From a virus: DNA of 35,549 bases. The first letter of the stretch is position 1. Every line of letters begins with the position of its first letter. A program made the position numbers and the translations under genes. The notes beneath the pieces were generated by a model. It ran no database searches. It worked only from the letters and a program-made list of their open reading frames with translations, and was not told the origin of the DNA. The DNA lies in the IMG/VR virus record IMGVR_UViG_3300021962_000311, positions 1 to 35,549 of that record; one strand, given 5' to 3'. Of this stretch, positions 5,238 through 21,853 are shown piece after piece.

Positions 5238-5900
5238 ATGGGCGTACTCTCAGAAATAAGGAGTCAATTTAATCGTGATAAGGGTGCCTCATATTCAAAC
5301 GAATATGAGGTCAGTTTTGATTTTTCTGGAATTGGTGATAGATTGAGAGAAAATTTAGAATTAGTAGGATTTACAACATTTTCTACAGGGAGTGCATTTG
5401 CAAATATGATGATGCTTTGTGATGAAGCATCTCTTCCTGGAAAGTATGCTGCAACACAAGAAATTGATGGTATGTACACAGGAAGATTAATTAACTTTCC
5501 TCACGCAAAACTTTTCAATGATTTTAGTTTGAGTTGGATTAATACTAATCAAGTAAATCCGACAAAGTTTTTTGAAGCTTGGATGTATTCAATGTTTCCT
5601 GAGTATGGATTAAATACCGCTGAGTATGTTGAATATGAGGCAAAAGGAGAAGGTCAAAGAGCGACGAGAACAAATATTACTACTCTGGCTTATTATGATG
5701 AGATTTGCTGTAAGAAAATTTCAGTTCAAAAATCATATAAACAACCTACTTCGTATAAGGGTGGTAAGTCTTCTATTACCCACATATATAATGCATACCC
5801 TTATTCCGTTGAGTCAATTCCACTTGGATATGGTCCATCAACACTTGTAAAATTAAGAGTTCAATTCCGTTACGAAAAAAACATTACTGTATTTTATTAA
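5238..5900 (+). CDS. gp54: gp54-like baseplate tail-tube initiator
   Basis: 220 residues, shorter than T4 gp54 (320). The body SFDFSGIGDRL, the MMMLCDEASLPGK segment, INFPHAKLFNDFSLSWI and PTKFFEAWMYSMFPEYG resemble the tail-tube fold shared by gp19, gp48 and gp54, and the C-terminal VKLRVQFRYEKNITVFY fits the terminal strands. The protein would sit between gp48 and the first tube ring. It starts the rightward hub operon and is 19 nt from the gp26 ATG. gp54 rather than gp48 is inferred from length and gene order. Confidence 0.65.
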   Translation: MGVLSEIRSQFNRDKGASYSNEYEVSFDFSGIGDRLRENLELVGFTTFSTGSAFANMMMLCDEASLPGKYAATQEIDGMYTGRLINFPHAKLFNDFSLSWINTNQVNPTKFFEAWMYSMFPEYGLNTAEYVEYEAKGEGQRATRTNITTLAYYDEICCKKISVQKSYKQPTSYKGGKSSITHIYNAYPYSVESIPLGYGPSTLVKLRVQFRYEKNITVFY

Positions 5901-5919
5901 TTAAAGAGGTTATTTGAGT

Positions 5920-6633
5920 ATGTCACTGCCTAAGATTAATTCTCCGTTATATGAATTAACTATTCCATCTACTGAGAAAAAGATTAAATATAGAGCATTT
6001 GTCGTTAAAGAAGAAAAGATTCTTCTTCTTGCTTTAGAATCACAAGAACAGCAAGAAATTACAGATGCTATTATTCAAATTATCAATAACTGTGTTCAGT
6101 CAAAGATTGATATTGATAGTTTATCCACATTTGATATTGAATATATTTTCTTAAATATTCGTGCAAAATCAGTTGGTGAAGAACTGGAGTTTTCAATCAC
6201 CTGTCCTGATGATGGTGAAACACAGGTAGAAGTAACGATTGACATCGATGCAATCAAAGTGCATAAAGATGATAAGCACGATAGTGTAATTGATTTGGGT
6301 AATGGATACTTCGTGAAAATGAAATATCCTACTATGAAATATATTGCTGATAAGAAAAATATTGAGACGAAGAGTGTTATTGATAGCACCTTCGATTATG
6401 CTGTAGATTGTATTGAACAGATTTATAATGAAGAAGAAGTATGGGAAGCAGCAAATTCCACCAGAAAGGAAATGGCAGAATTTGTTGAGAGTTTGAATTC
6501 TAAGCAATACCAGAAAATTCAAGATTTCTTCAATACAATGCCTAAGTTGAAGCATACAGTCAAAATTACCAATCCCAAAACTGGTGTCGAAAGTGAGGTG
6601 ACGATTGAGGGTCTGGCAAATTTTTTCGCATAG
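5920..6633 (+). CDS. gp26: gp26-like baseplate hub/tail assembly protein (zero-frame product)
   Basis: 237 residues from the ATG at 5920 (a TTG at 5914 would add two residues; AGAGG at 5905-5909 serves either). The N-terminal half, SLPKINSPLYELTIPS, KYRAFVVKEEKILLLALES and STFDIEYIFLNIRAKSVGE, is the signature of the T4 gp26 family (Pfam T4_baseplate). T4 gp26 belongs to the hub assembly pathway. The gene ends GLANFFA-stop at 6631, directly after two slippery heptamers. The -1 frame stays open to 6809 and would give a 296-residue product. Confidence 0.85.
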   Translation: MSLPKINSPLYELTIPSTEKKIKYRAFVVKEEKILLLALESQEQQEITDAIIQIINNCVQSKIDIDSLSTFDIEYIFLNIRAKSVGEELEFSITCPDDGETQVEVTIDIDAIKVHKDDKHDSVIDLGNGYFVKMKYPTMKYIADKKNIETKSVIDSTFDYAVDCIEQIYNEEEVWEAANSTRKEMAEFVESLNSKQYQKIQDFFNTMPKLKHTVKITNPKTGVESEVTIEGLANFFA

Positions 6634-6658
6634 CAGTTTTCCAGAATAATCTGGAGAA
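6618..6658 (+). promoter_or_regulatory. Programmed -1 frameshift site with downstream stem-loop
   Basis: Overlapping heptamers A AAT TTT (6618-6624) and T TTT TTC (6621-6627), both of X XXY YYZ form in the gp26 reading frame, precede the UAG (6631-6633). An 8-bp stem, TTTTCCAG (6637-6644) with CTGGAGAA (6651-6658), closes a six-base loop 9 nt after the second heptamer. Slipping back one base leads into a frame open to 6809. Confidence 0.65.
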
Positions 6659-6683
6659 CTATTATCGATTAAATTTTAATTTA

Positions 6684-6809
6684 ATGCAGCATCATAAATA
6701 CTCTTTGACAGAAATAGAAGAGATGATGCCTTGGGAACGTGATATTTACGTTCAATTGTTGGTGGAATACATTGAGAAAGAAAACGCAAGAAGAGCAGCA
6801 CAGCAGTAA
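6684..6809 (+). CDS. gp26 frameshift extension / small hub assembly ORF
   Basis: An ATG at 6684 gives 41 residues (MQHHKYSLTEIEEMMPW onward), helical and charged, with the stop overlapping the next start (TAATG). The same frame is open upstream through the gp26 stop, coding RIAVFQNNLENYYRLNFNL before the ATG. That looks like real protein and supports expression as a gp26 fusion rather than a separate gene. The ATG has no good RBS. By position (between gp26 and the tape-measure-like gene) it is the counterpart of the lambda T extension in G-T, or of T4 gp51. A late-promoter-like CATAAATA (6693-6700) lies within it. Confidence 0.65.
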   Translation: MQHHKYSLTEIEEMMPWERDIYVQLLVEYIEKENARRAAQQ

Positions 6810-9652
6810 TGGCAACACCACCAGCTAATCCAAATCCATCAGGAGGGACTAATCCAACTCCCACTTCAACTCCTGCTGCTAATAATTCAACTTCTAATCA
6901 ACAGAATCAACAGAATCAACAGAATCAACAGAATCAAACACAAAATACTCAGCAGCAAACACCAACACAAGATTTTACTCCAAATAACAATACTGGTCTT
7001 GAAGTCAGAGAAGTAAATCCTCCTTTAACACCAGATCAAGTAATTGGTGTTGTTGATACTCCAGTACCTACTCCTGTTTTACCTACATTAAAACTTGAAA
7101 ATGTAAAAATTCCTACGGTAAAAAATAAAACAATTCAAGGTCATCTTAAAGCCATTGAAGGTAAGATGATTGCGACTGAAAAGTTGATGAAAAACATTGT
7201 TAAACTTCAGCGCCTTCAGTATACAACAGAAAAGCAATTATTTGAAAGAAAGAGAGAATTATATCAAAATACTTTTGAGGAATATCTATTAGATAAAACG
7301 ATAGATTTTGGTAAAAAGAAAAAAGATTGTACTTGTATAAGTATTCCTGAAAATGTTCCTAAACAATCTTCACCTCCATTAATACCTCCATTAGGAAACC
7401 CTGCTACAGCACCTGCCACACAACCAGCAACTTCTCCTGCCACACAACCAGCAACTTCTCCTGTCAGGCAGCCAGGAACTGTGCTTCCTCCAATATTTCA
7501 ACCTGGCGGATCTCCCGCTCCAGCTCCTTTTCCCAATCCTGGTCCTGGTCCTGGTGGATTAACTTTACCCCCTCCAACACCATCTCCAGTACCTGATGTA
7601 AATATACCGAATTGGCCTGGTCCAAACGACAATACTCCTCTACCACAATTACCACCAACAACTACTGATAGAGGTAGAGATAAGGGTAGAGCACCTGGAC
7701 AAACACCTGGATTTGATTTAAAGGGTGCAATTGATGGATTAATAAATGCTGGTTTGATTACTGCCACTGCCGCTGCGATATTGTTCCCTGGTGATGGTCC
7801 GCTTCTTGATGCTGTTGGTCTTGCAGCATTAATTAGTAGAGGAGTAATGGCAAGAGCAACTATATCAGCAGTGGTAAGAAAAGTACTTACCAAAAAAGCT
7901 GCAGAACAACTTATGAAACAAGTTGATAAACTTGTAGGTGCTCCCAGACCTAGAACATCTTTTGCACCATCATATGCTTCTGGTGGTATAGTTCCTTATG
8001 CTTCTGGTGGTATTCCTGGAGGCGAAGATTTAGAACTCTATGATTCAAAATCACAAGATTATTTTAGAGGCCTCTCTAGTCAGGCTTTACAGGTAGCATC
8101 TGATATTCCTGTTGGACCTCATACACCACTACCTCATCCTGGATATGTGAGACCTCAAGGTGGTCATATTCCAAGACCTAATTTAAGAGGTATGCCAGGT
8201 CCGATGGGTAATCCTATGCCTTGGGGATGGCAACCAACTCTACTTGCAAAAGGTGGAATAGTAAAATCTTATGGCGGTGGTGGATGGTTACAGCAATTAG
8301 GTAAGTTTTTACCTGGCACTGGCACTGTAATGGCACCAAAGGGAGTATCATTGGGGTATCAAGATAAGTTTTTAGGGATTCCTATAGGAGCGAGACGTGA
8401 GATTCCTTTGAATAAAACTTATGCACCTGCTCAAGCGGCAAGGTATAATGCATCTCCAAGTGCCCCTAGCACTCTAACAACTTTTTCTAATGGACCTCTT
8501 CAGGGTAGACATGTAAGTATTCCTAAAACTACAGTATCTCCTGCTGCTACTAGTTCCACTTCACGAACTGAACCATTAACTAGTAGAACACAAGGACTTG
8601 CTAGTTCTTTATCTCAACAAAGTGAACAAAAGCAGGCTCAAATTAATGAACTTTTAGGTAAAAATGATAAAACTATGACATGGGGGCAAGCAAATCAAGA
8701 ATTAGGAAATAGATTAGGTTGGAGTACCCGAGGGGAACAAATGATGAAAGCTAAACAACAAGGGATGTTTGCTGATGGTGGAATTACGGGCGGTAGATTA
8801 GGATTTACTACAAGATTTGGTGGTCAAGTAAATAATATGGCAGGTATTACAGCAGGATTAGATTTTACTAGTGGAAAAACTAGAGCATCTGCTGATGCTA
8901 TGATTGGTGCTGGAAATACTATTGTAGGAACTTCACCAGAACGAGCTGTTGATGATTCTTTATATGCGGATCAATCTAACACTGGAGATTGGAAAGGAGT
9001 ACCATATGCACTTCCTGCATTTAAATCTGAAGTCAGGCAAGGATTGATGGGTGCTTTTGGTGCTGGTCTTACTTCTTCCTTCGGAGATTCTCCTGAAAAT
9101 GATGATGATCCCGAGAGTCCTGATCAAAGGAATCCTAGAAGAAAAACTCCTACTCCTGAAAGAGACCCTAAATCTACTAGAGCTATGGTCAGAGGAAAAC
9201 CACCAATAGTACGAGAAAAACCCCCAGAAAGAAAAAAACCAGAAGGAATAGTTCTAAAAAAAGATGGAAAAGAAAAACCAGATGATAGAACAATAAATCG
9301 AAATAGTATAGTTCCAATCACAAAGTTAGCAAAATCACCTAAAGAAGAATCAAGAGATGATGATGCCAATACTATTATAAAAAAATCTAAACAAGATTTT
9401 GAAAAATTTGGTGAAGATTTTAATGTATCACCTCCAGATGAATCTTCTTCAGGTATTAAAAATCTTGAATCTCAGCAGAATCAATTGCAACAAAGTTCAA
9501 GTGCTCCTACAGTAGACACGATGAGTACTCCTCCTGTAGTGCAATCACTTGGAAATAATACTTCTTCCCCTTCAATAGATGCTGAATTAGAACCACCTTC
9601 TAGTGCTTCAATGCCTCAGGAATTTATAGTTCCATCTAGCGGACCTTTATAA
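6809..9652 (+). CDS. Tape-measure-like tail/hub protein, 947 aa
   Basis: Visible parts in order: a Pro/Asn/Gln-rich start with four repeats of a 9-nt unit (QQN) at about residues 30-43; a coiled coil at about 108-165; a Pro-rich linker at about 185-290 with a perfect 24-nt tandem duplication; a hydrophobic Ala/Gly/Leu helix at about 308-345; then several A-x-GGI motifs (YASGGIVPYASGGIPGG near 388, LLAKGGIV near 480, FADGGITGG near 653), which are common in tape-measure proteins; and a charged disordered tail from about 750. It follows the gp26 frameshift gene, where phages place the tape measure. No T4 gp29-like sequence is recognisable. A tape-measure or hub-core role is inferred. Confidence 0.6.
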   Translation: MATPPANPNPSGGTNPTPTSTPAANNSTSNQQNQQNQQNQQNQTQNTQQQTPTQDFTPNNNTGLEVREVNPPLTPDQVIGVVDTPVPTPVLPTLKLENVKIPTVKNKTIQGHLKAIEGKMIATEKLMKNIVKLQRLQYTTEKQLFERKRELYQNTFEEYLLDKTIDFGKKKKDCTCISIPENVPKQSSPPLIPPLGNPATAPATQPATSPATQPATSPVRQPGTVLPPIFQPGGSPAPAPFPNPGPGPGGLTLPPPTPSPVPDVNIPNWPGPNDNTPLPQLPPTTTDRGRDKGRAPGQTPGFDLKGAIDGLINAGLITATAAAILFPGDGPLLDAVGLAALISRGVMARATISAVVRKVLTKKAAEQLMKQVDKLVGAPRPRTSFAPSYASGGIVPYASGGIPGGEDLELYDSKSQDYFRGLSSQALQVASDIPVGPHTPLPHPGYVRPQGGHIPRPNLRGMPGPMGNPMPWGWQPTLLAKGGIVKSYGGGGWLQQLGKFLPGTGTVMAPKGVSLGYQDKFLGIPIGARREIPLNKTYAPAQAARYNASPSAPSTLTTFSNGPLQGRHVSIPKTTVSPAATSSTSRTEPLTSRTQGLASSLSQQSEQKQAQINELLGKNDKTMTWGQANQELGNRLGWSTRGEQMMKAKQQGMFADGGITGGRLGFTTRFGGQVNNMAGITAGLDFTSGKTRASADAMIGAGNTIVGTSPERAVDDSLYADQSNTGDWKGVPYALPAFKSEVRQGLMGAFGAGLTSSFGDSPENDDDPESPDQRNPRRKTPTPERDPKSTRAMVRGKPPIVREKPPERKKPEGIVLKKDGKEKPDDRTINRNSIVPITKLAKSPKEESRDDDANTIIKKSKQDFEKFGEDFNVSPPDESSSGIKNLESQQNQLQQSSSAPTVDTMSTPPVVQSLGNNTSSPSIDAELEPPSSASMPQEFIVPSSGPL

Positions 9653-9657
9653 TGTAA

Positions 9658-11739
9658 ATGGAAAATTTAGTTCAACCAAAAACTAAAATGGTGAATGCTC
9701 CTAAACAGGAGTCAAAGTATTTTGTCGCTGAAAATAATATTGTTCCTTTACAGGTAGCAACACCACAATTAATTTTAGATCTTGAAGAAACGAAAGATAT
9801 TCAAATTCTTGATGAAAATAAGGTACAAACAATAATTAAAGAAAACAAGGGGAAATATATTCTTGATAAATTTTTCAATAAAGTTTCTGATTATATTGAC
9901 AGTGTTAATCAATTTATAAAAAGATTGACACAACTGCAGTTAAAAAATATAGAACAAAAAAAAATAATTTATGAAATTGAGAAGACAGATCAATTTTTTA
10001 AATCTAATAAGTCCAAAAAATTAATAAAAAAAATAAAAGAGGAAGAGCAAGAGCAAGAATCTAAAAATATAGACATCTCTACTGATAAAGATGCTGCTCT
10101 TCTTATTGCAGCTGCTCTTGGAATGGGAGTTACATCAGCACTTACTTCTATGCTTCCTGGGGGAACACAAGTTTACAGTGATGTAGTTAAAGAAGGAGAA
10201 TTTGGAGTTCAGCAAGGTCAGAATGTATCAATACCTCCTGCTTGGATACCTTTTCCTAAAGGAACTTCTGGATTAGTTTATACTTCTGGTTATGGGATGA
10301 GATTAAGTCCCGTCAGTGGTAGATATAAGATGCACAGTGGTATTGATATTGCTGGTCCAGTTGGTTCTCCCATCATTACTCCTATTTCTGGTATGGTGTC
10401 ATTTGCTGGTGATGAAGGTGATGGTTATGGTTATAAAGTTGTAATTACTTCTGGACAACTTAAAATGTTGTTTGGTCATATGTATCAACCACCTCCTGTT
10501 GCTACTGGGCAGCAGATTCAAGCGGGAACTAAAATTGGTGGAATAGGAAGCACTGGGCAATCTACAGGACCTCACTTGCATTGGAATGTTTATGTTAATG
10601 GAAGTACGGTAAATCCTGTTGATTGGACTAGATCAAATCGTCCACAAGTCGGCACATCTAGTTTTCAACAAAGTGGAGGTTATGGAAGATATGCTGACCT
10701 TTCACAACAAAGACCTTTGGATCAAGAATCGGAGGGTGGTATTAATATTAACAGACGCATTATGGTTGGTGAGGCAGGAGTAGAATTTACAATTCCCATC
10801 AGTCAAATGCCATTGTTCATAAAAGCAATGATGGAAGAGAAAGTTAAAACTTTAATTCCAAACTATGAAGGAACTACAGAAGCAAATGTTGGATTTGAAA
10901 CATCATCAGGACCTGCTCAAACTAAATTTGCTTCAGGTGCGATAGTTAAATATACAGGTAATCCTAATTACCGACTTGCTGCTAAAAAATTAAAATCATT
11001 ATTCCCAGAAGCAAAGGATTATCATATTGCTGCTGCTATGGGTAATTTTGAAACAGAATCAACTGGTATGTATCCAAACAGATATCAAGGTGATTATTCG
11101 ACACCTCCTACTTGGAAAAAACCAGGCAGCGGTCCTGGTAGAGGAATTGCACAATGGGAAGTTGACCACGCTGGGAATAATTTTAATGGTAGATGGTCTC
11201 AGGGTATTAAGAAGTTTGGACCTTCTTTATTTACAAGTTTACCAAAACAATTAGATTTTGTTAAATGGGAACTTGATAATAATACAAGATATTTACCTTG
11301 GGGAAATGCAACTAAAACAGAATGGTTAGGTTCAAAGGACCTTATAAGTGCTACTAAGAATTTCTTGGAAGGTTATGAAGCACCTAGTATTCCTCATATG
11401 GATGCTAGGATATTAAGAGCAAAAAGTTTTCTTGCTAATATGAGAAAGAAAGAAAATTTATTAGGAATTCCTGAGCAACCCAAACCCAAACCAAAAGAAG
11501 AAAATATTTTTGATAAAATTAAAAATTTCTTTTTGCCACCCAAGAATAAAGTTGCATTTAGTCCTACTCCAACAACTACTCCAAGTTTAACAGATATACC
11601 TGACAATGTGCAGCAAGAAATTGCATACGATACTCAAAGTAAGTTTGAGATGTTCGCTGAACCAGAAAATAGTATTCTTATTATGAAAGTTCCAGTAATC
11701 ATAGATAAAACTACTGCAGGCATTAAGGTTGTAGGATAA
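9658..11739 (+). CDS. Tail hub protein with M23 peptidase and tail-lysozyme domains
   Basis: 693 residues. A coiled coil at about 55-140 and a short hydrophobic segment (AALLIAAALGMGVTSAL) lead into an M23 peptidase domain: SGYGMRLSPVSG, H226-SGI-D230 and the HLHW motif at 306-309. M23 enzymes cut peptidoglycan cross-bridges. A GEAGVEFTIPISQMPLFIKAM stretch similar to tape-measure C-termini follows. A second enzymatic domain at about 435-585 resembles phage tail lysozymes (AAMGNFETES with Glu465, GRGIAQWE). It is probably carried in the tail and opens the host wall on injection. The upstream gene ends 5 nt before; the next start overlaps its stop (TAATG). Confidence 0.75.
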   Translation: MENLVQPKTKMVNAPKQESKYFVAENNIVPLQVATPQLILDLEETKDIQILDENKVQTIIKENKGKYILDKFFNKVSDYIDSVNQFIKRLTQLQLKNIEQKKIIYEIEKTDQFFKSNKSKKLIKKIKEEEQEQESKNIDISTDKDAALLIAAALGMGVTSALTSMLPGGTQVYSDVVKEGEFGVQQGQNVSIPPAWIPFPKGTSGLVYTSGYGMRLSPVSGRYKMHSGIDIAGPVGSPIITPISGMVSFAGDEGDGYGYKVVITSGQLKMLFGHMYQPPPVATGQQIQAGTKIGGIGSTGQSTGPHLHWNVYVNGSTVNPVDWTRSNRPQVGTSSFQQSGGYGRYADLSQQRPLDQESEGGININRRIMVGEAGVEFTIPISQMPLFIKAMMEEKVKTLIPNYEGTTEANVGFETSSGPAQTKFASGAIVKYTGNPNYRLAAKKLKSLFPEAKDYHIAAAMGNFETESTGMYPNRYQGDYSTPPTWKKPGSGPGRGIAQWEVDHAGNNFNGRWSQGIKKFGPSLFTSLPKQLDFVKWELDNNTRYLPWGNATKTEWLGSKDLISATKNFLEGYEAPSIPHMDARILRAKSFLANMRKKENLLGIPEQPKPKPKEENIFDKIKNFFLPPKNKVAFSPTPTTTPSLTDIPDNVQQEIAYDTQSKFEMFAEPENSILIMKVPVIIDKTTAGIKVVG

Positions 11740-13625
11740 TGATTAAATCTCGCACACAGATAATTCCATTTAAAAAACCACCAAAAGTCAAGGCTCTTTC
11801 GCCTATAATTCCTCGCAGAAAAAAATCTGAAGAAACTCGCAGCAAGAAGTCATTATTCAGTACTATTATTCCATTCAATCCAGAGATGTTGAGGTTGGAA
11901 GAAGTAGAGCAGAAACACTATATTGTTCCAACTCCAAAAATAGAATATATTATTGATTCTGATGATAAAAATGATTGGAATTCTCTACTTGAAAGGTTTA
12001 ATTCATTGATGAGGACTTTATTGAAGGTTCTTTCAAATATGAGAAAGCAGCAGCATCGTAATGTCATAAGTTTAAAATTAACTGAACGAGAAATTGAACG
12101 CAGGCATACTTTACTTCACGAAAAATTACTTGAAAAAACTCAGGATGCTGAAGAGGTACAGGCAAAAACTCAGTTAACTGATAAAGAAAAAATTCAAAAA
12201 TTAAAAGATTATTTGTCTGCTCTTGGATATGCAGCTGCTGGAGCACTTATGGTTGACCCAAATGCGCCAGTATTGACAGGTAATTTAGGTCAGAAATCAG
12301 TGCAACTTGCACAAAGATTAATGCAAGATTTTGGACTTACTGATTTCCAAGCTGCTGCTATTGTTGGTGTTATGAGAAGAGAGGGTTTTAGTAGTGGTTA
12401 TCCTGATGTTCGTCAGGGAAATGTGAGGGGAGCACCAACTTATGGAGGTACATCTCAAGAAGGATATGGATGGATTCAGTGGACTAATGTGCCAGGAGGT
12501 TCAGACCCAAATGGAAGATTGAATAGAGCCTTGATTTATCTTGGTATGGGACCACCACCAAAACAGACAAGACCCTGGACCGATGAGGACAATTATAAAG
12601 TATTAACTTGGGAATGGAGAACTCATTATACCAGTACAATTCCATCGGTAAAATCTACTAGCACATTAGAACAAGCTGTTTATGAATTTGTTGGTAATTA
12701 TACAGCTGGAAGTAAAGCAAATATTGCAACATATGAGGCAAATGAAGGTGGTGGATTTTTACAAAGAAGAATAGACGAAGCTAATAGTGTTTTAAAGACT
12801 CTTAGGCAAAAAGCAAGTGGAGGTATTGTAATACCAGAGTTGTTTGATAACAATCTTATTGAATATGATACTTTTAGGAAGACTACTTTACTTTCTAACT
12901 TCATCGTTGATAGACCAACGATATTAAATATGAAAGACATTGGGGAACCTTTAGTTATTATTCCATTAGGTAGACCTATTGGTAGAATGATTTTGCAGAC
13001 AATTTTTCGTGATGCTTTTAGAAGATTGGAAAATAAGTTTGAAATGAAAAAAATTCAGAGTCAACCTGTGGAGTTTTTGAAAACACCAGCACCAACTCCA
13101 ATGAAAAGTGAAATTGGAGGTCCTTCACCAGCAACACCAGGAAGTAGTGAAATTGGAGGTCCTTCACCAGCAACACCTGTAACTCCTTCAGTAAATACTT
13201 CTACTCAAAGTTTATCATCGATGAGTATCGAACAACTTAAAGGAATGTTAGACCCCACAATAACTGGAGCAGCAAATCCAAGTGTATTCAATGCAGCTAA
13301 ATCTGCGAGAGAAGCAGCAATGATGCAAGGATTATCACCAGAAGAAATTGAACGACAGGTTCTTATGGCAACAATTGCTGCTAGAAGAATGCAACCCTCG
13401 CCAGTTACATTGGTGAAATCAATTCCAGGTAAAATAATCAATACAGTTGTTCCTCTTCCAGTAGAATCTCCAGAAGCAAAAGTTCCTGATATTTCTCCAT
13501 CACCTCAGGCGCAGGAAGAAAAAAGTCGTATAGATACTAATATATCGCAAAAAACAGAGAACATCATAACAGGAGGTTCTAAGAAGGTCATTATGGTAAA
13601 CGAAACTTATATCTACACTGATTAG
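11739..13625 (+). CDS. Tail hub protein with tail-lysozyme domain, 628 aa
   Basis: The layout parallels the two preceding genes: a basic N-terminal tail, coiled coils at about 70-165, a hydrophobic stretch (SALGYAAAGALMV), then a tail-lysozyme-like domain at about 185-345 with AAAIVGVMRREGFSSG (Glu215 the likely acid) and EGYGWIQWTN. KASGGIVIPELFD near 360 recalls tape-measure motifs. The C-terminal part is Pro/Ser/Thr-rich, with a 32-nt direct repeat (13107-13138 and 13146-13177) encoding SEIGGPSPATP twice. It is likely a second wall-degrading hub component. The stop is 2 nt before the gp27-like gene. Confidence 0.7.
   Translation: MIKSRTQIIPFKKPPKVKALSPIIPRRKKSEETRSKKSLFSTIIPFNPEMLRLEEVEQKHYIVPTPKIEYIIDSDDKNDWNSLLERFNSLMRTLLKVLSNMRKQQHRNVISLKLTEREIERRHTLLHEKLLEKTQDAEEVQAKTQLTDKEKIQKLKDYLSALGYAAAGALMVDPNAPVLTGNLGQKSVQLAQRLMQDFGLTDFQAAAIVGVMRREGFSSGYPDVRQGNVRGAPTYGGTSQEGYGWIQWTNVPGGSDPNGRLNRALIYLGMGPPPKQTRPWTDEDNYKVLTWEWRTHYTSTIPSVKSTSTLEQAVYEFVGNYTAGSKANIATYEANEGGGFLQRRIDEANSVLKTLRQKASGGIVIPELFDNNLIEYDTFRKTTLLSNFIVDRPTILNMKDIGEPLVIIPLGRPIGRMILQTIFRDAFRRLENKFEMKKIQSQPVEFLKTPAPTPMKSEIGGPSPATPGSSEIGGPSPATPVTPSVNTSTQSLSSMSIEQLKGMLDPTITGAANPSVFNAAKSAREAAMMQGLSPEEIERQVLMATIAARRMQPSPVTLVKSIPGKIINTVVPLPVESPEAKVPDISPSPQAQEEKSRIDTNISQKTENIITGGSKKVIMVNETYIYTD
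13107..13177 (+). repeat. 32-nt direct repeat in the tail-lysozyme gene
   Basis: Two identical 32-nt copies (13107-13138 and 13146-13177), offset by 39 nt (13 codons), keep the reading frame. Identity at silent positions points to a recent duplication. Confidence 0.9.
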
Positions 13626-20979: not shown

Positions 20980-21318
20980 TTGAAGCATGTACTGGGAAAA
21001 CACTGCTTTACAGAAGCATATAACTGTGATAAAATTCTTTTAGATGATGAGGAATTTTTAAAAGAACAGATTATTGAAGCGATAAATAAAACAGAACTGA
21101 CGTTATTGAGCATTTCCTCACATAAATTCAGTCCTCAAGGTGTTACGATAGTAGCATTATTATCTGAAAGTCATATCAGTATCCATACTTGGCCTGAGAA
21201 TGGATCAGCTGCATTAGATGTTTTTACCTGTGGTGAAACAAATCCAGAAATTGCTATGCTTCATATGATATTGGCTTTGAAATCAACAAACCACAATACC
21301 AAATGCATAGAACGCTAA
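20980..21318 (+). CDS. speD: S-adenosylmethionine decarboxylase proenzyme (SpeD)
   Basis: 112 residues. SpeD makes decarboxylated SAM, the aminopropyl donor for spermidine. The motif SESHISIHTWPE is diagnostic: autocleavage between Glu63 and Ser64 yields the pyruvoyl group; His69 and Cys84 (in DVFTCGE) match the processing and catalytic residues of the Thermotoga-type enzyme with an offset of one. The only start in frame with a suitable RBS is TTG at 20980, 6 nt after GAGGAG (20968-20973); the ATG at 20973 is out of frame. speD is a known auxiliary metabolic gene of cyanophages. It directly follows the spike gene. Confidence 0.92.
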   Translation: MKHVLGKHCFTEAYNCDKILLDDEEFLKEQIIEAINKTELTLLSISSHKFSPQGVTIVALLSESHISIHTWPENGSAALDVFTCGETNPEIAMLHMILALKSTNHNTKCIER

Positions 21319-21587
21319 TGTATAAGGTCACGGCAAAGCATGTATTAACAGAAGAAGAGGGTATTGTTAAGGTTTATTTCATTAACGACACCCCCTTTAC
21401 ATATGACTCATTAGATGATATAATGAAGGAAGATGAGACGATCATTGCCGAAATCTTAAATTGGCCAACCTTGACCATTGAAGAAATACGACAAAAATCT
21501 GCTTATCTCTTAGAAGAGGGTTTACATCCTCTGTTAAATAGTGTAGAATTACACCCAGAGAGTGTTCTTCCTGATATGCTCTCATGA
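21318..21587 (+). CDS. Small hypothetical protein, paralog of the next gene
   Basis: 89 residues from the ATG at 21318, which overlaps the speD stop (TAATG); an ATG at 21303 would lie inside speD. It begins YKVTAKHVLTEEEGIVKVYFINDTPFTYDSLDDI and ends in an acidic PES segment. The aligned pattern (K-x-x-A-x-V, then V-x-x-YFI-x-x-x-PF, then a LLEEGLHP helix and ELHPESVLP end) recurs in the following gene. No function is recognised. Co-transcribed with speD. Confidence 0.7.
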   Translation: MYKVTAKHVLTEEEGIVKVYFINDTPFTYDSLDDIMKEDETIIAEILNWPTLTIEEIRQKSAYLLEEGLHPLLNSVELHPESVLPDMLS

Positions 21588-21853
21588 AATACAAACTTGA
21601 TGCCAGATATGTATGGTATAATCAAGGAACTCAAATAGTTCTGATGTATTTCATTCAAAGTGTACCATTCAGTTTTGAAGAACTTCCAGATACTGCTAAG
21701 CAGGATTTAGAACTTATTCATCTGGCAGATTGCGAAAGGAGATTTGATCCTGAAGATCTGTATCAAGCAAATTACTACTTGATGATGGAAGAATGTCACC
21801 CAGATATGTTTGAGTTAGAACTGGAAAATCCAGAAATCTTACCAAACGAATAA
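21584..21853 (+). CDS. Small hypothetical protein, paralog of the preceding gene
   Basis: 89 residues, the same length as its upstream neighbour and starting in an ATGA overlap with it. The shared pattern is KYKLDARYV, VLMYFIQSVPFSFEEL, YYLMMEECHPDMFELELENPEILP. The pair looks like an old tandem duplication. Function unknown. Its stop is one base before tRNA-Thr. Confidence 0.7.
   Translation: MKYKLDARYVWYNQGTQIVLMYFIQSVPFSFEELPDTAKQDLELIHLADCERRFDPEDLYQANYYLMMEECHPDMFELELENPEILPNE

Follow-up and report, generated by a model that had tools for sequence, protein, structure and literature searches.

Many tailed phages produce a tail assembly chaperone (TAC) in a short and a longer version. In lambda gpG/gpGT, a -1 frameshift near the end of the short TAC gene adds a C-terminal domain, and the E. 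coli dnaX signal consists of a Shine-Dalgarno-like element, the slip heptamer A AAA AAG and a downstream hairpin. TACs of T4-like phages were reportedly identified by Vladimirov, Gautam and Davidson (Virology 2022, 566:9-15), with frameshifting said to be conserved in several T4-like groups. Vladimirov et al. 2022 is cited in passages of the PRFect paper (PMC10885494) for T4-like phages in which a short gene and a fused one take the place of frameshifting, and in passages of the paper on phage Adele (PMC12846349) for poly-T slip signals in T4-like TAC-N genes. TACs and poly-T frameshifting in T4-like phages have thus already been published, and the kind of gene reported here is known.

The window analyzed in this study, from a marine T4-like phage, is the whole 35,549-nucleotide stretch of the IMG/VR virus record IMGVR_UViG_3300021962_000311. 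As in lambda, its gp26 gene would gain a C-terminal domain by a -1 shift near the TAC-N end, but the lambda slip sequence differs from that of the window and no sequence similarity is expected between the two. With dnaX it has the three-part layout in common, although dnaX is a cellular gene with a different heptamer and function. There was also a likeness to the T4-like TAC-N/TAC-NC of Vladimirov 2022 as represented in the citing passages, which belong to one gene family with the window's gene (that of T4 26/51), come in a short and a long form and have poly-T slip sites; the window phage differs in being uncultivated and newly added. The TAC locus of the Vandenendeviridae and Andersonviridae likewise has a T-run motif (GTTTTT) conserved at the TAC-N end and an open -1 frame that is usually misannotated, but these are separate phage families, and the available passages of PMC12846349 mention neither a hairpin nor an upstream element. 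In hundreds of cyanophage records the two pieces of the gene are annotated as separate genes, or the second is missing. The site would represent a well-conserved natural U6-7 frameshift signal in marine phages, with testable stimulators.

Layout of the gp26 locus and proposed expression

The short form, gp26 (5920..6633, + strand), is preceded by the Shine-Dalgarno sequence AAAGAGG (5903..5909, + strand), identified by sequence 10 nt 5' of the ATG at 5920, and its 3' end reads GAG GGT CTG GCA AAT TTT TTC GCA TAG, with the 0-frame stop UAG at 6631..6633 (+ strand). The two overlapping heptamers noted in the preliminary description were both located in the gp26 frame, A AAT TTT at 6618..6624 and T TTT TTC at 6621..6627 (both + strand), and the UAG followed closely, as it had stated. 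We also found the -1 frame to be open, as described, from 6609 as far as a TAA at 6807-6809, whose last base also begins the next gene's ATG at 6809 (TAATG). The segment at 6627..6809 (+ strand, 60 codons plus TAA), called gp51 in other annotations, corresponds to the putative C-terminal domain (TAC-C). The predicted product lengths of 237 aa for gp26 and 296 aa for the -1 fusion were verified from the sequence, and the fusion sequence is identical whichever heptamer slips. The window's predicted genes contain 65 in-frame X XXY YYZ heptamers, and apart from these two none leads into a -1 extension of at least 30 codons past the stop.

Taken together, gp26 and the following -1 frame very probably constitute one TAC gene, with a short TAC-N and a frameshifted TAC-NC form and with stimulators of the shift. 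The conserved signal and the selection on the -1 frame come from comparison of sequences, and the TAC fold of the N-terminus is predicted; we infer the slippage itself, its efficiency and its role in tail assembly. The majority of ribosomes would terminate at the UAG at 6631 to give TAC-N (237 aa), while a minority would move back by one base at T TTT TTC to give TAC-NC (296 aa) with an added helical domain, and the slip would be aided by an upstream GAGG Shine-Dalgarno-like element and a downstream 11-bp hairpin. By analogy with lambda gpG/gpGT, both forms may cover the tape measure protein and bring in tail tube subunits. The annotation of LIMEstone1 gp26 as a confirmed structural protein counts against the TAC reading, because in the general view TACs do not stay in the virion.

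The genes around this locus were also inspected. A tail tube protein gene (5238-5900, PF23849) lies directly upstream of gp26. Downstream, the ORF at 6809..9652 (+ strand) encodes a Pro/Gln-rich protein of 947 aa and shares the first base of its ATG with the TAC-NC stop. This 947-aa ORF had no match in PHROG or Pfam; it occupies the place expected of the tape measure gene and is a positional candidate for it. Further on, two consecutive ORFs at 9658-13625 match Phage_lysozyme2 (PF18013), the first of which also has a Peptidase_M23 domain, which suggests several cell-wall-cutting domains in the tail region.

Conservation of the slip heptamer and of the -1 frame

A tblastn search with the fusion protein matched 985 phage records, 868 of them with at least 80% query coverage. 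The conservation set comprised 241 loci with both domains, taken from IMG/VR, two cyanophage records and the window, and 130 loci that remained after dereplication at 85% identity were used in the selection tests. Results showed that the C-domain lies in the -1 frame relative to gp26 in 241/241 loci, and that T TTT TTN is kept at the identical position in every one of them, the last base being C in 210, T in 27, A in 2 and G in 2. The first Phe codon was TTT in 130/130 dereplicated loci, compared with 76% elsewhere in the same genes, and the base preceding it was T in 130/130, compared with 72% elsewhere; Phe-Phe at other places in these genes is mostly TTC TTT, with TTT TTC being rare (5/108). 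The same slip site was present in the culture-derived T4-related phages PVA8 (KVP40-like), CC2, Stenotrophomonas phage Bhz51, LG08, phiM7, Melnitz-3, ORM_20, S-PM2 and S-CAM1.

Of the two heptamers in the preliminary description, T TTT TTN was thus kept in relatives, but A AAT TTT occurred in close relatives only (25/241 loci), and T TTT TTC is therefore the common site. A AAT TTT was ruled out on this count as a general functional site; it is probably not essential, and it may provide extra slipping in the close relatives. Six loci (L043, L052 and L057-L060) at first appeared to be exceptions, with no T run near the 0-frame stop, and were rejected as such when the heptamer was found in all six; their 0-frame stop is displaced by 8 codons downstream, except in L052, where a stop comes earlier, probably as the result of an indel. 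No broken T TTT TTN was present among the 241 loci. A different arrangement was observed in Ackermannviridae and in the Vibrio phages D492 and VPALA, whose C-domain also lies in the -1 frame but follows ATT TTC or CTT TTC, not a full X XXY YYZ heptamer (L258, 3253-3292; L262, 3046-3085; L263, 3190-3229; and L267-L270).

The -1 frame had been described as protein-like, a view borne out by purifying selection in relatives as well as by its protein family match (see below). In the 130 dereplicated loci, the -1 frame had a pN/pS of 0.24 over codons +3 to +14 and of 0.11 over the core, and no stops were found in the -1 codons tested, whereas the other two frames showed pN/pS >1 and contained stops. 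The manner in which ribosomes enter this frame bears on an alternative according to which gp26 and gp51 are separate genes, with the C-domain made alone through an internal start or termination-reinitiation. The two-gene annotation of most database records, with gp51 annotated separately in many cyanophage records, agrees with this alternative, and so does the first -1 frame ATG at codon +3, just past the 0-frame stop, in 56/130 dereplicated loci (for example L082 at 4223 and L265 at 3220); gp51 is annotated from this ATG in P-SSM2 and S-PM2, and reinitiation there could yield a free C-domain. In the window, however, the earliest possible -1 start codon is at 6684..6686 (+ strand), which would open a 41-aa ORF, has no recognizable Shine-Dalgarno sequence upstream and is unlikely to be used for translation. 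Moreover, 23/130 dereplicated loci have, like the window, no ATG, GTG or TTG before codon +15, yet their pN/pS in codons +3 to +14 was 0.11. Since these codons are conserved as protein without a start codon, translation must enter the -1 frame from gp26. Two separate genes would also leave the heptamer in 241/241 loci unexplained, and the AlphaFold model of the C-domain has three helices, the first of which starts at the slip itself, although the first six residues are of low confidence. We therefore regard separate genes as quite improbable. Judged by the comparison of relatives, selection at the protein level acts on the -1 frame from the slip onward.

Elements flanking the slip site

A Shine-Dalgarno-like element, GAGGG (6607..6611, + strand), lies 9 nt 5' of the slip heptamer. 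Five codons ahead of the slip, Glu is encoded by GAG in 89/109 loci, compared with 27.7% elsewhere (p = 1.5e-31), and this choice creates GAGG 9-10 nt upstream of the heptamer. When Shine-Dalgarno-like cores of any kind were counted over the last codons, 120 were observed against 118.9 expected, but this test is uninformative because the EGL peptide forces purines, while the Glu codon test is informative. Downstream of the slip, the stem-loop first described as 8 bp at a distance of 9 nt is present but extends to 11 bp with a 7-nt spacer (6635..6660, + strand; 6635-6645 paired with 6650-6660, loop 6646-6649). The segment 6628-6668 folded at -15.5 kcal/mol (z = -6.0), and 0/200 shuffles folded as well.

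In the window's clade the hairpin persists despite sequence change through compensatory changes, with pairing intact in 96.9% of cells. Both sides had changed in 26 cells, compared with a shuffle mean of 8.7, but the pairs in which both sides varied numbered 3, which was not above shuffles. Sliding the partner by one column reduced pairing to 62.5%, a control that favours a structure derived from the same sequences; direct evidence comes from the compensatory cells at columns 9-32, 11-30 and 17-24. Across the 130 loci, 62% had a folding z < -2 downstream of the slip, compared with 15-18% at control sites, and other lineages had different hairpins there. As far as codon choice and pairing in relatives indicate, the GAGG element and the hairpin are both stimulators under selection. 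In the literature searched, where Vladimirov 2022 is represented by the citing passages, we found no earlier account of either the GAGG element or the compensated hairpin.

These two elements also bear on a second alternative, in which the long form arises through slippage of RNA polymerase on the T run rather than of the ribosome. The signal is indeed a T run, which reaches 7-9 T in some relatives, but the window has T6 only, and by established knowledge transcriptional slippage usually takes longer runs. The phase of the heptamer is in all cases that expected for tandem tRNA slippage, although the conserved Phe-Phe also fixes this phase, and the selected GAGG element and hairpin stand at ribosomal spacings. 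Polymerase slippage thus appears to us a poor candidate, with very little probability, and ribosomal frameshifting is the reading that we retain.

Protein families, T4 counterparts and predicted structures

The family matches of gp26 are PF12322 (T4_baseplate, E 2e-71) and phrog_150, and those of the -1 segment are phrog_634 ('baseplate hub assembly catalyst', E 5.5e-27) and the C-terminus of phrog_150. This double match arises because T4 gp51 (249 aa) joins a PF12322 domain and the C-domain in frame, whereas T4 gp26 has the PF12322 domain alone. In end-to-end alignments, T4 gp51 aligned with the conserved fusion protein and T4 gp26 with the short form; from this domain make-up, T4 gp26 is the counterpart of the short form and gp51 that of the fusion. 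T4 differs in that 26 and 51 are two distinct but homologous genes on opposite strands, without a slip site, and the 3' end of its gp26 reads TTC TTT GAG, followed by gene 25. Both T4 proteins appear as hub assembly chaperones in PMC3004832. As to the remark that these proteins are not usually described as frameshifted TACs, T4 26/51 is the case that lacks frameshifting, but for T4-like phages both TACs and frameshifting have been published before, as passages of PMC10885494 and PMC12846349 attest.

The in-frame fusion in T4 also gives some footing to a third alternative, that the slippery run is there by chance and the C-domain is the decaying remnant of an in-frame fusion like T4 gp51. Decay is contradicted by the strong purifying selection that the -1 frame shows in the tested loci and by the complete lack of heptamer exceptions (0/241), and this alternative is scarcely credible. 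Returning to the frameshifted TAC gene, we tentatively propose, as a possibility with less than even chances, that a three-part cassette (GAGG element, U6-7 heptamer and lineage-specific hairpin) is kept across cyanophage-like and several other T4-related phages, that the separate 26 and 51 of T4 are an alternative in which the frameshift was replaced by a second, fused gene, and that the free C-domain may be a third product where an ATG follows the 0-frame stop.

AlphaFold models were built with 37 relatives and had a mean pLDDT of 80.9 for gp26 and 83.1 for the C-domain. Among PDB sequences, gp26 had no match. The best structural matches of residues 1-95 of the gp26 model, over about 80-85 residues, were 3fgx (Z 7.9), 2ob9 (7.6), 3klu (7.3) and 5ir0 (4.5), where a Z of 7-8 is middling and can reflect a common arrangement; the fifth-best and lower matches were unrelated, at Z 2.7 and below. 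3fgx, the HK97 TAC (2ob9), YqbN (3klu) and the PLE TAC (5ir0) are TACs or TAC-like (PMC9603447, PMC12987554). The matches are supportive, not proof, of a predicted TAC fold in the N-terminal ~90 residues of gp26. A fold search with the C-domain model gave no match, and its weak coiled-coil PDB matches (HIV gp41) were judged to be due to chance. Elsewhere in the window, two adjoining short genes at 21303-21853, both of phrog_4134 (a family of unknown function), lie beside an S-adenosylmethionine decarboxylase gene (20980-21318).
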